Shown here one piece after another: positions 10,704 through 42,420 of a stretch of DNA of 64,000 nt. The translations under genes were made by a program, and so were the position numbers. The notes under the pieces were generated by a model. The model was not told where the DNA came from. It made no database searches and saw only the letters and a program-made list of their open reading frames with translations. Position 1 is the first letter of the stretch. Each line of letters begins with the position of its first letter. Source of the stretch: Luteimonas sp. (lineage in GTDB: Bacteria > Pseudomonadota > Gammaproteobacteria > Xanthomonadales > Xanthomonadaceae); contig JANPZU010000005.1 in assembly GCA_024707405.1 (NCBI GenBank), positions 1-64,000 on the forward strand, in the 5' to 3' direction.

Positions 10704-10805
10704 ATTCCAATCCAATGCAATCGCTTGCCGGATTCGGAATAGCTCGCTGCGGCTGGCGCCAATACTCGATTCCTGTTGCATGAGTCCCTGGGGAGGGAAA
10801 GAAGC

Positions 10806-13800
10806 ATGAAAAATCCGCGCATTGCGCCGAAAAAGCGCCTGCTGACATCTGCCCTGCTGCTGGCCCTCGCGTCATCGGTTGCAGCGCAGGAAGCGCCGCC
10901 CGCCAGCCAGTCCGAGTCGGGTGAAGCCACCGAACTTGACACCGTTGTCGTGACCGGTATCCGCGGCAGCCTGCAGTCTTCGATGAACCTCAAGCGCGAC
11001 GCGACGGGCATCGTCGATGGCATCATCGCTGAGGACATCGGCAAGTTCCCCGACACCAACCTCGCCGAATCGCTGCAGCGCATCTCGGGCGTATCGATCG
11101 ACCGCAGCATGGGCGAGGGCTCGAAGGTCACGGTTCGCGGCGTCGGGCCGGACTTCAACCTCGTCCTGCTCAACGGGCGCCAGATGCCAGCCTCCAGCAT
11201 CGAGGCGACGAATGCCTCCAATTCGCGCGCCTTCGACTTCGCGAACCTCGCCTCCGAGTCGATCTCGGGCGTCGAAGTGTTCAAGACCAGCCGTGCGTCG
11301 TCCCCGACCGGCGGCCTCGGCGCCACGATCAACATCAAGACAGCGCGTCCGCTCGATGCCGGAACGCTGGCGAACGTCGGCATGAAGGGTGTCCACGACA
11401 CCTCGGTGAACAACCTGCCCAACGATATGCGCGGCGACTCGGTGACCGGCGAACTGTCGGGCATATTCAGCCAGGTCTCGGCCGATGGTCGCTTCGGCTT
11501 GGCGCTCAGCGGCAGCTACCAGGATCGCGACTTCGGCTACAACGAAGCGGCAGTCGGTGGTGGCTGGTATGCGTTCCCGGGAGGCCAGGGGCCGCTGGTG
11601 AACACGGTCGGCAATGCCACCAACCCGCCGGGCGCCGGTGACATCTACTCCATCCCGCAGAACCTGATCTATGCGGTCAACGGCGTGAAGCGCCAGCGCA
11701 CCAACGGTCAGGCCACGCTGCAGTGGGCGCCGACCGACCGCGTGACGGCCACGCTCGATTACACCTACGCCGAAAACCGCATCCAGCAGCGTCGCCACGA
11801 ACTGTCGACGTGGTTCAACCAGGCCGCATCCGCCACTTCATGGACCGACGGGCCGGTTGCGGGGCCATTGAGCTATACCGAATACGCGGGCTGCTTCAAT
11901 CCCGCGACCGAGCAGTGGACTGCCAGCGATCCGAACAACGTATGCCCGGCAGGATTCGAGCCGCGCTGGGGCGACCTGGCGATGGCCGGCGCGCTCAATG
12001 CCACCAAGAACGAGAACAAGTCGCTTGGTTTCAACGTCGAGTGGGCGGTCACCGACTCATTCGATCTCAGCTTCGACTACCACAGCTCCAGTGCGGAATC
12101 TGGTGCGGACAGCCCGTTGGGCTCCAACAACGTGATCGGCACGGCAGCATTCGTGCGCGGCGTGACGAACGTCGACTTCAGCGGCGATTTCCCGGTGTTG
12201 TCGGTGATGCTGCCGCCCGGCGTGACCAGCGTCAGCCCAAGTGAAATGATGGTCACCGGTTCGTCGTTCCGAAACAGCTACATGAAATCGGAGGTCGACC
12301 AAGGCCAGGTGCACGGCACGTTCCGTTTCGCCGACTACTCGCGCCTGGACTTCGGCGTGGGCTATACCGAAGTGAACAATCGCACGGCCTACAACTTCAC
12401 CCAGCGCGACGACTGGGGTGGCTTTGCAGGTGGTCCCGCGGACTACGCCGACAACCTCTGGATCGCGGACGACATCAGCCGCTACTTCGACCAGTTCCCG
12501 GGCAGCAGCGGTGCGTTCGGGCAGTTCTTCATCTTCGATTTCGATCGCGTGCGCGATGCGGCGATCGCCGCGCGCGGCGGGGATACCGCAGCCTACCTGC
12601 CGCCCGACAACTTCACCACGGATCGCCGCGCCACGGAGAAGTCGCAGAGCGCGTACGTGCAGTGGAGCAACACCTGGGACTTCGCCATGCCGGTGAATGC
12701 ATCCGTCGGTGTGCGCTACGAAAAGACCGATGTCACTTCAAGCGCGCTGGTGCCGATCGCGACCGGGTTGACCTGGACTGGCGCCAATGAGTTCTCGGTG
12801 CAGTTCGGCGCCCCCGACTTCACCACGCTCAAGGGGAGCTATCGGTACTGGCTCCCCAGCATCGACCTCAGCGTCGAACTGACCGAGAGCATGGTGTTGC
12901 GCGGCAGCTATGGCCACAGTATCGGCCGGCCGCAGTGGAACCACATCCAGGGTGGGCAGACGCTTGATTCGTTCGCTGCGTACGAGGGGGGCACCGGCTC
13001 CCAGGGCGATCCCGGGCTGAAGCCGCTGGAGTCGAAGAACTTCGACCTGTCGTTCGAGTGGTACTACGGCGAGGCGAGCTACGTGTCGATCGGTTACTTC
13101 CGCAAGGACATCGACAATTACATCGGCACGTCGATGGCGGAGATCTCGCCGTTCGACCTGACCACGCCGGTCGGCGGCGCCTATTTCAACGAGGCCGTTG
13201 CCAATGGCTGTGCCGTTGGCTCGACGGATTTCCGCGGGTGCGTGCGTCGTTACATCTTCGCCAACTACGACGGCAGTCCGGGCGTGACCCAGACTGGTTG
13301 GGATACGAATGGCCAACCGACCGGCACCATCGCCGGCCGGCCCGGGGATCCGGCGGCGATCTTCCGCGTCTCGGTTCCGGTCAACAAGGAATCGTCCTCG
13401 CTCGATGGCTGGGAGATCAATATCCAGCACATGTTCGGCCAGAGCGGATTCGGCGTGTCGGCGAACTACACCATCGTCGACTCCGACCTCACCTACGATG
13501 ACTTCAACCTCGGCGACCAGTTCGCCATGCTGGGGCTCAGCAACGCGGCCAACTTCGTCGCGTTCTACGACAAGGGGCCGTGGCAGATCCGTGCGGCCTA
13601 CAACTGGCGCGACAAGTTCTTGTCCAGTACGTTCGACAGCTGGCGTCCCAACCCGATCTACGTCGAGGACTACGGTCAGTGGGACGTGAACGTGAGCTAC
13701 CAGGTGTCGGAGAACTTCTCGGTGCATGCCGAGGCGATCAATCTGACCGACGAGACCATGCGCTCGCATGGCCGCAATGAGCGGCAGGTGTTCTACGCGA

Positions 13801-38534: not shown

Positions 38535-41294
38535 ATGCCAAGACTTGTCCTGATCGACGGTTCCTCGTACCTGTTCCGCGCGTTCCATGCGCTGCCGCCG
38601 CTGACCAATGCCGACGGTGAGCCGACCGGCGCGCTGTTCGGCGTGGTCAACATGCTGCGCGCAACGCTGAAGGAACAACCGGACTACGCCGCCTTCGTGG
38701 TCGATGCCAGCGGGCCGACCTTCCGCGATGCGCTGTATCCGCAATACAAGGCCAATCGCCCGCCGATGCCGGACGAGCTGCGCGCGCAGGTCGAGCCGAT
38801 GATGCAACTGGTCGAGGCGCTGGGCCTGCCGATCCTGCGCGTCTCCGGGGTCGAAGCCGACGACGTGATCGGCACGCTCGCATTGCAGGGTGCGGCCGAC
38901 GGCATCGACGTGACCATCTCCACCGGCGACAAGGATTTCGCGCAACTCGTGCGTCCCCATGTCGAGCTGGTCAACACCATGACCGGCAGCCGGCTGGACA
39001 GCGATGCATCGGTGGTGGAGAAGTTCGGCGTACGTCCCGACCAGATCGTCGACATGCTGGCGCTGATGGGCGACAGCGTCGACAACATCCCCGGCGTCCC
39101 CAAGTGCGGGCCGAAGACTGCGGCGAAATGGCTGGCCGAGTACGACAGCCTCGACGGCGTGATCACCCATGCCGTCGAGGTGAAGGGCAAGATCGGCGAG
39201 AGCCTGCGCGAAGCCTTGCCGCAACTGCCGCTCAGCCGGCAACTGGCGACGATCAAGACCGATGTTGCGCTGGACGTGGATGCACAAGGCCTGCGGCTGC
39301 GCGAACGCGACGTGGAAGCATTGCGCACGTTGTATGCCCGATACGGTTTCAACCAGGCACTGAAGGAACTCGATGGCAACGGCGCGGCGACCGTGCCGGA
39401 AAAGGAGCCTGGCAAGGCGCGTGGAACCGGCCGCGTCTCGGCACCAGTCGCCGTGGACGAGGCGCCGCCTGCCGCCGAACTATCCGTGCCCGGTGAATAC
39501 GAGGCGATCCTGTCGCAGGCGCAGTTGGACGACTGGCTTGCGAGACTGCAGGCCGCCGATGCGTTCGCGTTCGATACCGAAACCGATTCGCTCGATGCGA
39601 TGCGCGCTAACCTCGTCGGCATGAGTTTCTGCGTCGAAACCGGTCGCGCCGCCTACCTGCCGCTCGGCCACGACTATCCCGGCGCACCGGCGCAACTCGA
39701 TCGCGAGGCGGTGCTGCGCGCGCTGAAGCCGATCCTCGAAGATCCCGCGAAGCGCAAGGTCGGGCAGCACGGAAAGTACGACCTGCACGTGCTGCGTCGC
39801 CACGGCGTGGATGTGCGCGGCTATGCCGACGACACCATGCTGGAAAGCTTCGTGCTCAATTCCAGCCAGCGACACGACATGGATTCGCTGGCCAGGCGCT
39901 TGCTCGGCTACGAGACCATCAAGTACGAATCCGTCGCCGGCAAGGGCGCGAAGCAGATCCCGTTCTCTGCTGTTGCCATCGACGATGCCACGCGCTACGC
40001 GGCCGAGGACGCCGACGTCACCCTGCGCCTGCATCGCGTGCAGGCACCGAAGCTGGCTGCCGAACCATCGCTGGAAGGCGTGTACCGCGACATCGAGATG
40101 CCGCTGGTGCCGGTGCTCGAACGCATCGAGGCCAACGGCGTGAAGGTCGATGCCGACGAGCTGCGCCGGCAGACCGCCGACCTGTCTCGGCGCATGCTGG
40201 CCGCGCAGCAGAACGCCACGTCGCTTGCGGGACGTACCTTCAACCTCGATTCGCCGAAACAGTTGCAGGCGCTGCTGTTCGATGAACTGAAACTGCCTGC
40301 GGTGCTGAAGACGCCGACCGGCCAGCCCTCGACCAACGAGGAAGCACTGGAAGCCATTGCCGACCAGCACGAACTGCCGCGCGTGATCCTCGAATACCGC
40401 GGGCTGGCCAAGCTGCGCAGCACCTACACCGAAAAGTTGCCGGAGATGATCAATCCCGACACTGGTCGCGTCCACACCAGTTACCACCAGGCGGGCGCGG
40501 CGACCGGACGGCTCGCGTCCAGCGATCCCAACCTGCAGAACATCCCGATCCGCACCGACGACGGCCGCCGCATCCGAAAGGCCTTCGTCGCTCCGGAAGG
40601 ACGCAAGCTGGTGGCCTGCGACTATTCGCAGATCGAATTGCGGATCATGGCGCACCTGTCGGAGGATCCGGCGCTAGTGCGTGCGTTCGAGTCCGGTGCC
40701 GACATCCATCGCGCCACCGCGGCAGAGGTGTTCGGTCGCAAGCTGGACGAGGTGTCGTCGAACGAGCGTCGCGCGGCGAAAGCGATCAACTTCGGCCTGA
40801 TGTACGGCATGAGTGCGTTCGGACTGGCGCGCAACCTCGGCATCGGTCGCGGCGAGGCGCAGGACTACATCGCCACCTATTTCTCGCGCTATCCCGGCGT
40901 GCGCGACTTCATGGAGCGCACGCGCCAGCAGGCGCGCGACCAAGGCTACGTGGAAACCGTGTTCGGCCGTCGCCTCTACCTGGAGTACATCCAGCGCGGC
41001 ACGCAGGGCCAGCGCGCCGGCGCCGAACGCGCAGCGATCAACGCGCCGATGCAAGGCACCGCGGCCGACATCATCAAGCGCGCGATGGTCGACATCGACA
41101 CGTGGATCGCAGGGCACGCAGACAAGGCGCTGATGATCCTGCAGGTGCACGACGAACTGGTGTTCGAGGCCGACGACGGCTTCGTCGACACCCTGCTCGC
41201 CGAAGTGCCGGCGCGGATGGCGTCGGCTGCGGAACTGCGTGTTCCATTGGTGGTGGATTCCGGGGTGGGGATCAACTGGGACGAGGCCCACTGA
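38535..41294 (+). CDS. polA: DNA polymerase I
   Basis: This 919-residue enzyme does Okazaki-fragment processing and repair synthesis. The N-terminal 5'-3' exonuclease domain (1 to about 290) has IDGSSYLFRAFHALPPL and the TGDKDFAQLV and GDSVDNIPGVPKCGPKTA metal-site regions. The 3'-5' exonuclease (from about 320) keeps FDTETDSL (near 345), so proofreading residues are intact. The polymerase domain has motif A DYSQIELR (near 696), motif B RRAAKAINFGLMYG and motif C VHDELVFE (near 871). It ends WDEAH. A second copy of its last codons is found in the repeats just downstream. Confidence 0.97.
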   Translation: MPRLVLIDGSSYLFRAFHALPPLTNADGEPTGALFGVVNMLRATLKEQPDYAAFVVDASGPTFRDALYPQYKANRPPMPDELRAQVEPMMQLVEALGLPILRVSGVEADDVIGTLALQGAADGIDVTISTGDKDFAQLVRPHVELVNTMTGSRLDSDASVVEKFGVRPDQIVDMLALMGDSVDNIPGVPKCGPKTAAKWLAEYDSLDGVITHAVEVKGKIGESLREALPQLPLSRQLATIKTDVALDVDAQGLRLRERDVEALRTLYARYGFNQALKELDGNGAATVPEKEPGKARGTGRVSAPVAVDEAPPAAELSVPGEYEAILSQAQLDDWLARLQAADAFAFDTETDSLDAMRANLVGMSFCVETGRAAYLPLGHDYPGAPAQLDREAVLRALKPILEDPAKRKVGQHGKYDLHVLRRHGVDVRGYADDTMLESFVLNSSQRHDMDSLARRLLGYETIKYESVAGKGAKQIPFSAVAIDDATRYAAEDADVTLRLHRVQAPKLAAEPSLEGVYRDIEMPLVPVLERIEANGVKVDADELRRQTADLSRRMLAAQQNATSLAGRTFNLDSPKQLQALLFDELKLPAVLKTPTGQPSTNEEALEAIADQHELPRVILEYRGLAKLRSTYTEKLPEMINPDTGRVHTSYHQAGAATGRLASSDPNLQNIPIRTDDGRRIRKAFVAPEGRKLVACDYSQIELRIMAHLSEDPALVRAFESGADIHRATAAEVFGRKLDEVSSNERRAAKAINFGLMYGMSAFGLARNLGIGRGEAQDYIATYFSRYPGVRDFMERTRQQARDQGYVETVFGRRLYLEYIQRGTQGQRAGAERAAINAPMQGTAADIIKRAMVDIDTWIAGHADKALMILQVHDELVFEADDGFVDTLLAEVPARMASAAELRVPLVVDSGVGINWDEAH

Positions 41295-41545
41295 CGGGCG
41301 ATTCATTTCTGTGTCGCGTGGGGACGCGTTCATCAGCGTCATGGCGGCAAGTTGAATCCGGCCCGGGATGAAGCCCACTGACCGGACGATTCGTTTCCAT
41401 CCCGCGTGGGGATGCGTTTAGCTGCGCTGCAGCGGCGCATGGAACATGGCCCGATGGAATGACAGCGCTGTTCATTTCCATCGTGCGACGAAAGTCTCGG
41501 GTGGGAGTGCGAAGCGTTCGTGAAGTGTGATGACGGTAGCTGCTG
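41278..41545 (+). repeat. Degenerate tandem repeats of about 87 bp copying the polA 3' end
   Basis: The first unit starts inside polA at 41278 and the second at 41365. GGGAyGArGCCCACTGAC is shared between them and includes the polA stop. Later shared blocks include CGATTC-TTTC and CGCGTGGGGAyGCGTT. A weaker third unit begins near 41460 (TTCATTTCCATCGTGCG). The units differ by many substitutions and small indels, so the duplication is old. Confidence 0.55.
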
Positions 41546-41743
41546 GTCGCGTTCGGGAGCACTGCGACCGGTTTCATCAATGAGTTACATGCATCGCTTC
41601 AGGATGCGGGGTGACTTCCGGCATACGTCTTCACGCGGACAGGAATTCCGGTCGTGAAAATCGAGGTAAACGCCGCCTGAATTCAGACGGAAACAGGACG
41701 GAATCTTCACGAACTATCAATGCCCGGAGTGGTCAGATGACTC

Positions 41744-41866
41744 GCGACAGATGCAAGGTCTGTCGCAGATCCCTCCCATCCCCTGGAGTGATCCCGGAAC
41801 GAAGGCTTCTCCCCGAGTCCCGTTCCCCGAGCCCCGCCGGCCCCCCCTGCCTGCGGGGCTTTTTTT
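41744..41866 (+). ncRNA. sX13-like small RNA candidate downstream of polA
   Basis: The region between polA and the YetF-type gene folds into consecutive stem-loops with C-rich loops. They are GCGACAGA/TCTGTCGC (41744/41759), CTCC/GGAG around a CATCCCCT loop (41773/41785), GGAACG/CGTTCC enclosing CTCCCC (41796/41821) and a terminator whose loop is seven C residues. Xanthomonas sX13 is, as I recall, a small RNA downstream of polA with C-rich loops that pair with G-rich translation starts; position, size and architecture agree. The 5' end is uncertain, as no convincing promoter was found, and may lie 10-20 bases further upstream. Confidence 0.6.
41830..41866 (+). terminator. Strong intrinsic terminator of the sRNA candidate
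   Basis: AGCCCCGC (41830) and GCGGGGCT (41853) form an 8-bp stem followed by seven T residues (41860-41866). The 15-base loop is C-rich. The polA stop is more than 500 bases away, so a separate short transcript ending here is likely. Confidence 0.88.
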
Positions 41867-41928
41867 ATGCGCGGCTTACGGGCGGTTCGGCGTAACGTTC
41901 GCATGTCCTGATGACCGAGGAGTACGCC

Positions 41929-42420
41929 GTGTCCGATGCGTTCGAGGCGATGTTCGAGCTTGCGATGCCGTGGTGGGCATTCGTGCTGCGCGCGTGCGTC
42001 GTGTATTTCCTGTTGCTGGCGATGATTCGGCTGTCGGGCAAGCGTTCGATGGGACAGTTCACGCCGTTCGACATCCTGCTGGTGGTGCTGTTGGGCAATG
42101 CCGTGCAGAACGCGCTGCTGGGAACCGATGCCTCGGTGGCCGGTGGCCTGTTGCTTGCGGCGACGCTGATCGCGCTGAACTGGGTCGTCGGCCTCGCCTC
42201 TGCGCGAGTGCCGGGCGTCGAGCGTTGGGTGGAAGGCGCGCCGGTACTGCTGGCGCGCGATGGTCAGGTCTATCGCGAGGTGTTGCGGCGCGAGTTGATC
42301 AGCAAGGAGGATTTCGAGAAGGCGATGCGCGAGGCCGGCTGCCTGGAGATCGCCGACATCCGCCTTGCGGTGCTGGAGAACAACGGCAGGATCACGCTGG
42401 TGACACGCGCCGCGGCGTAG
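41929..42420 (+). CDS. DUF421 / YetF-type membrane protein
   Basis: This 163-residue protein has three hydrophobic helices (about residues 14-34, 45-64 and 69-90) and a C-terminal cytoplasmic domain: GAPVLLARDGQVYREVLRRE, then SKEDFEKAMREAGC and LAVLENNGRITLV. This is the DUF421 (YetF-like) pattern; function is not established. An ATG at 41911 is in frame, but GAGGAG at 41916-41921 lies inside that reading and is correctly placed for the GTG at 41929, so GTG is preferred. It ends 4 bases from the convergent hemF stop. Confidence 0.85.
   Translation: MSDAFEAMFELAMPWWAFVLRACVVYFLLLAMIRLSGKRSMGQFTPFDILLVVLLGNAVQNALLGTDASVAGGLLLAATLIALNWVVGLASARVPGVERWVEGAPVLLARDGQVYREVLRRELISKEDFEKAMREAGCLEIADIRLAVLENNGRITLVTRAAA

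Follow-up and report, generated by a model that had tools for sequence, protein, structure and literature searches.

The small RNA sX13 of Xanthomonas (Rfam RF02232) has been described as a transcript of about 115 nt that is Hfq-independent, and the sections of the report consulted here state that repression in Xanthomonas needs C-rich loops together with G-rich motifs, not Hfq, with hfq and pilH as reporter-tested targets (PMC3771888). In 2013, its gene was reported only in Xanthomonadaceae (PMC3771888). According to the same sections, two other RNAs, Spot 42 (spf) and alpha-r7, are likewise encoded beside polA, and alpha-r7 shares with sX13 a set of three stem-loops bearing C-rich motifs, although neither has sequence similarity to sX13 and Spot 42, unlike sX13, requires Hfq and has its effects in carbon metabolism; Staphylococcus RNAIII resembles sX13 in that its C-rich hairpin loops contact ribosome binding sites (PMC3771888). 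The sigma-E–dependent RNAs MicA, RybB, and MicL of E. coli are comparable with the RNA described here in the repression of mRNAs and in the putative sigma-E promoter presented below, although no homology is claimed and, in the parts of the sources consulted, sX13 differs from them in its reported Hfq independence and in having tested targets that are not porins (PMC3771888; PMC8103513).

In this study, we analyzed a 64-kb stretch of DNA (the window) from a Luteimonas-like genome (92.9% complete), for which the initial annotation had proposed an sX13 ortholog downstream of polA. The RNA with its parts, the promoter elements, polA, the YetF-type gene, and the two GGGG sites described below all lie on the + strand. 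The polA gene, encoding a DNA polymerase I of 919 aa, occupies 38535–41294, and the gene on the other side of the RNA (41911–42420; 169 aa), previously called YetF-type, was assigned to that type by PF04239 and PF20730. Between them, RF02232 matched 41755–41865 with a score of 76.3 bits and an E value of 1.8e-12 over model positions 1–115 of 115, so that the covariance search with an sX13 model, which the initial annotation had named as a check, exceeded the gathering cut-off of 50 bits. This was the sole above–cut-off family match in an Rfam scan across the 64-kb window and the single above–cut-off sX13 copy in the genome; a candidate second copy was rejected as merely a 14.5-bit match. The predicted full transcript of about 123 nt spans 41744–41866, as delimited by the Rfam match, the fold, and our own model that includes an additional 5′ hairpin (SL0). 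Its fold of −60.6 kcal/mol compares with a mean of −37.4 (sd 3.5) for 200 shuffles, none of which was as low (z −6.6), and its four predicted hairpins are in keeping with the stem-loops and the terminator with seven T that had been read there. On account of the Rfam score, the polA synteny, the structure, and the conservation of the loops, it is nearly certain that the sequence at 41744–41866 is an sX13 ortholog, as had been claimed. It resembles the sX13 of Xanthomonas in sequence and structure above the cut-off, in its C-rich loops, and in its place after polA (PMC3771888). The expected difference in spacing was also found: the distance from polA is 449 bp to SL0 and 460 bp to the Rfam start, compared with a gene start 175 bp after polA in Xcv (PMC3771888). 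The end of polA, including the stop codon (41278–41298; 21 nt), is partly repeated 87 bp on, at 41365–41385 (86%), and this repeat may explain part of the long spacer. Among the matches listed, the nearest named relatives by polA were Luteimonas aestuarii and L. marina, with 88–89% identity, which places the window in Luteimonas or close beside it.

Three of the predicted hairpins have C-rich loops, and the third of these is the terminator. SL1 (published stem 1) lies at 41768–41793 with the loop CAUCCCCU at 41777–41784, SL2 (published stem 2) at 41796–41826 with the loop CUCCCC at 41809–41814, and SL3, the intrinsic terminator, at 41829–41866, comprising a hairpin at 41829–41861 with a seven-C loop at 41842–41848 and a seven-T run. 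The sequence thus agrees with the earlier reading of CCCC in the two middle loops and of seven C in the terminator loop, where the published Xanthomonas form has five (PMC3771888). The loop of the first hairpin (41744–41766), around GCAAG, is not C-rich. We know of no kinship between sX13 and RNAIII. When 60 copies were folded, 40 from the family that holds the window (f1) and 20 from a second family (f12, presumably Rhodanobacteraceae), all 60 formed four hairpins. The longest C runs in the loops of SL1, SL2, and SL3 were 4, 4, and 4–7 in 40/40 f1 copies; in f12, loop 1 had four C in 3/20 copies and fewer in 17/20, and loops 2 and 3 had at least four in 20/20. Taken over both families, the SL2 loop carried four C and the SL3 loop a C run of 4–7 in 60/60 copies, so that the conservation of the C-rich loops in relatives, on which the initial annotation had staked its claim, held for loops 2 and 3 throughout. 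The pattern in f12, with a shortened C run in loop 1 and with loops 2 and 3 kept, fits the mutant data from Xanthomonas: there, loop 1 could be dispensed with in planta, and loops 2 and 3 were the important ones (PMC3771888).

Upstream of the RNA, we found a motif of the sigma-E type, GAAC(TT)-N15-17-(G)TCNNA, in the form GAACTA-N16-TCAGA at 41711–41737. Its −35 element GAACTA (41711–41716) lies within the conserved block TTCACGAACTATCAATG, and its −10 element TCAGA (41733–41737), of the GTCNNA type, follows the −35 element after 16 nt and ends 6 nt short of SL0. This promoter motif and the nature of the first hairpin are additions beyond the initial annotation. Of the f1 copies, 30/40 had GAAC-N16-TCNNA at a distance of −34 to −32 from SL0, and any other single position across 1.5 kb had it in one copy at most; the 40 copies (the window and 39 chosen loci) are without the 30 best-scoring loci, L003–L032, which are from genera that have mostly lost the motif. 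Among the f12 copies, 14/20 had a [GC]AAC form in the same interval (GAAC form, 7/20), with at most two elsewhere, and AACTT and TCtaA were the lone conserved stretches upstream of SL0. The Xanthomonas sigma-E consensus was reportedly given by Bordes in 2011 as GGAACT-N15-17-GTCNNA, and the rpoH gene of E. coli is preceded by a sigma-E promoter. A search of 30 chosen genomes found rpoE in all 30, with GAACTT-N16-GTCNNA upstream of it in 23 and the N17 form in 3 more (26/30), neither being present in 4. The motif is short, and GAACTT-N15-GTCNNA is not enriched across the window's genome, with 7 occurrences compared with 8 for a reversed control; two of the seven stand before rpoE and before the RpoH gene (NCBIfam, 412 bits; cut-off, 323). 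Because the motif at sX13 is as in the promoters of rpoE and, in the window's genome, rpoH, it is likely from the sequence that sX13 is under sigma-E control. In the parts consulted of the literature on sX13, RF02232, and Xanthomonas sigma factors, no link between sX13 and sigma-E was found, and one may have been published in Schmidtke 2012 or Bordes 2011; the main text of PMC3771888 does not contain rpoE, and the sections of it consulted name no factor that switches on sX13.

The motif was also found beyond f1 and f12, where 21 genomes were inspected. The strict form stood at the RNA start in 8/21 of these remote genomes (eight other families), which were hand-picked among those with a match, compared with 8/660 control windows. 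A looser −35/−10 pattern gave 21/21 compared with 10/660 and was rejected, having been shaped after the loci were seen and with at least two hits, L352 and L358, off-register; a pattern of middle strictness (16/21 compared with 11/660) was also set aside, and the strict count alone is used. The −10 element of the window reads TCAGA where the nearest named relatives, among the matches listed, have TCATA; a congener (G126) also has TCAGA. Farther upstream of the −35 element, at 41677–41710, the 40 f1 copies share a conserved block that contains CTGAA, TTAAC, and TTCAC; it is not conserved in f12, and the window lacks its TTAAC portion. This block is a possible activator or UP site.

SL0 occupies 41744–41766, has a GCAA loop, and folds at −13.8 kcal/mol (z −5.0). 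Neither the Rfam structure nor the Xcv description in the sections of PMC3771888 consulted includes it, and those sections call the 5′ region of sX13 unstructured and dispensable. The RF02232 model starts at AAcG, and in f1 and f12 copies these bases belong to SL0, with the 5′ arm just upstream; the Rfam boundary at 41755 therefore falls within the loop and cuts SL0, whereas the boundary at 41744 chosen in the initial annotation includes the whole of it. When folding was started from 41755, the 5′ region was free, and when it was started from 41744, SL0 formed; L004, a copy from the Xanthomonas clade, also formed SL0 with 11 extra upstream bases. Among 46 f1 sequences (45 distinct), 96.9% of SL0 cells paired compared with 87.3% after shuffling, the covariation score was 0.405 compared with 0.211 (reached by 0/500 shuffles), 41 cells were changed on both sides compared with 11, and 6/8 pairs were changed on both sides (matched by 9/500 shuffles), all with shuffles uncorrected for kinship; when the arms were slid as a control, 24–50% of cells paired. 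The mismatch cells comprised 19 G-U, 2 A-C, and 19 other in the 45 distinct SL0s obtained from 120 copies, some genomes being counted twice, and 2 G-U, 1 A-C, and 2 other in 10 distinct f12 forms. A preference for G-U over A-C is expected of a transcribed hairpin, not of a DNA palindrome. Owing to this tolerance and to the covariation, both arms are probably transcribed, and SL0 is likely to be part of the RNA. The loop was GCAA in 44/45 distinct f1 forms and in 20/20 f12 copies. In remote families, the 5′ hairpin varied: some of them (f3, f4, f5, f6, and f11) had GCAA close to the start, and the f2, f7, and f9 loci inspected did not. A second model of our own (R2) was made with f1 and f12 copies and a single copy each of f4 and f11; it has no pairs for SL0, which probably reflects a shift of the stem from one family to another in the alignment.

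At an E value of 0.001, RF02232 matched 238/398 genomes of the order, 143 of them above the cut-off, and many of these matches were in f12. R2, for which the E values are rough, matched 309/396 genomes in 10/12 families, with none in f8 or f10. The SL0-bearing model built from 46 f1 copies (R1) matched 80/80 named polA loci, the best 80 of at least 579, two being cut by a contig end. Around RF02232 matches, polA lay upstream on the same strand in 55/61 loci, the window included; the six exceptions were L125 and L161, with little upstream sequence, both copies of G225, L164, and L165. Of the matches in the 21 remote genomes, 9 had polA upstream in the same orientation, 2 were tail-to-tail with it, and 10 showed no polA in the examined flank. 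The tail-to-tail matches were in two f7 genomes, L359 and L362, as if inverted. G225 has two differing copies, L122 and L123, and for each of them the 2 kb upstream is free of polA. The second copy has GAACCA-N16-TCATA together with a hairpin resembling SL0 (loop TTCAAGG), lacks the TTCAC block, and is accompanied by a small ORF that we take to be dodecin. Two apparent copies in G266 were near contig ends and are probably an assembly overlap, and the additional matches in G240, G250, G002, and G034 appear to be chance hits.

As possible targets in the window, the initial annotation had pointed to G-rich sites before two genes, and GGGG is indeed present at 55–58 in the leader of the sugar transporter (ATG at 66) and at 10790–10793 in that of the TonB-dependent receptor plug gene (ATG at 10806), both being candidates read from the letters. 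The idea that GGGG is enriched upstream of genes for TonB-dependent receptors was rejected as too weak, at 8/30 compared with 4/30 ABC loci (30 of 35 and 30 of 45 matches, respectively), with a start-picking script that also rewards GGGG. With start codons chosen by script, the hfq leaders had GGGG between −25 and −3 in 20/30 genomes, the window's included, and between −30 and +20 in 25/30. The hfq motif tested in Xcv lies nine bases past the AUG (PMC3771888), whereas in the window's genome it lies before the start codon and the coding copy is absent. The pilH gene was identified from its N-terminal residues and its proximity to a PilJ domain; a stricter motif gave no starts and a looser one gave 9 in 26 loci, so that GGGG in 9/9 pilH-like leaders, the window's genome included, stands beside 17/26 loci without a start. 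The control rpoE leaders had GGGG in 1/29, the one being that of the window's genome. G-rich motifs on hfq and pilH are thus shared with the Xanthomonas system (PMC3771888). The duplex energy of loop 2 with the hfq leader averaged −11.7, compared with −7.0 (sd 3.1) when the leaders were shuffled. A reading in which loop 2 and the hfq leader have coevolved was rejected: f1 leaders gave −11.9 with f1 loops and −12.2 with f12 loops, f12 leaders gave −10.5 and −10.9, and the family swap weakened nothing. It is plausible from these motifs that hfq and pilH are regulated by sX13 in this species, and direct pairing is unproven because regulation in Xcv was not recovered when loop and target were changed in compensating ways, nor did a G-rich motif suffice by itself (PMC3771888).

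Taken together, we propose that RNA polymerase with sigma-E (RpoE) would start sX13 at about 41744 from GAACTA-N16-TCAGA and that the transcript, of about 123 nt, would end at its own terminator at 41866 and fold as SL0 followed by three hairpins with C-rich loops. These loops may pair with the G-rich leaders of mRNAs, those of hfq and pilH among them, and reduce the translation of these mRNAs, by which sX13 could link envelope stress to the level of Hfq and to type IV pilus control. We regard this proposal as a whole as probable. An unlikely, though not negligible, alternative is the plain published sX13, starting at 41755 without SL0 in the RNA, in which case the inverted repeat would be a DNA operator or the promoter would be of the sigma-70 type, assisted by an activator. 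The Rfam start, which fits the published length of 115 nt, is in the SL0 loop, so that SL0 might be cleaved or lie outside the transcript, and from that start and that length we infer that the mapped 5′ end in Xcv is the Rfam start. TATA-like letters overlapping the −10 region in many relatives, among the best 80 of at least 579, and the conserved block farther upstream, which could bind an activator, would also suit this alternative. However, a DNA site would not need arms that covary with G-U over A-C at 19 to 2, the distance of 17 nt from the −10 element to 41755 is unusually far for that start, and a sigma-70 consensus scan, though strict, found no site.

That a different ECF factor of similar taste uses the ECF-type promoter seems improbable to us. 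RpoE is the only ECF factor compared and is named by the motif alone; however, it occurs in 30/30 genomes searched, and its own promoter (26/30) and the rpoH promoter of the window's genome have the same letters and spacing. Finally, we consider it scarcely credible that the RNA is a 3′ UTR product of polA, or a mere polA terminator, with no promoter of its own. That polA precedes sX13 in the same orientation at 55/61 loci would fit this, but the two are 449 bp apart in the window, the block upstream of sX13 is far more conserved than the spacer, both G225 copies keep the promoter motif and SL0 without polA within 2 kb upstream, and no polA was in the examined flank at 10/21 remote matches.

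Compared with the initiation by sigma-E that we favor in the window, the Xanthomonas system may have diverged. Across 81 polA loci, namely, the window and the best 80 of at least 579 named polA relatives, the promoter motif was intact in 39, lacked the last A (GAAC-N16-TC) in 5, was out of register in 8 (the S. maltophilia group), and was absent in 29; with both partial classes scored present, the fewest changes on the polA tree for these loci were 10. Within the same best 80 of at least 579, the motif was kept in 3/14 rows named Xanthomonas and in 2/17 named Stenotrophomonas, and where the window has a sigma-E–type promoter, all 10 rows of the main Xanthomonas clade have GATCCA-N16-TGTTA instead and read TGTTATAT, which, from its letters, would resemble an extended sigma-70 −10 element. 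The TGTTA of this clade is without the −10 C that E. coli RpoE requires, according to the parts consulted of PMC8103513. Stress control may persist in Xcv by other means because sX13 rises there with salt, at 37°C, and in minimal medium (PMC3771888); the rise with salt and at 37°C also speaks for the proposal made above for the window.

The sX13 locus alone is ordinary; the promoter and SL0 make a known RNA newly testable. If SL0 is part of the RNA, the Rfam sX13 family would begin inside a hairpin loop. If the sigma-E promoter is true, a reportedly Hfq-independent RNA with C-rich loops would stand where E. coli uses MicA and RybB. More broadly, with slightly better than even confidence, sX13 may be the small-RNA arm of an order-wide sigma-E envelope-stress response, with an ancestral sigma-E promoter and C-rich hairpins, often beside polA, and with the GCAA loop of the 5′ hairpin surviving in f1, f12, and some other families; the main clade of Xanthomonas, the genus from which sX13 became known as a virulence regulator, would then have lost this control, making the model species derived and rewired. 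Should this loss be true, the results obtained in Xanthomonas would not be simply transferable to its relatives.
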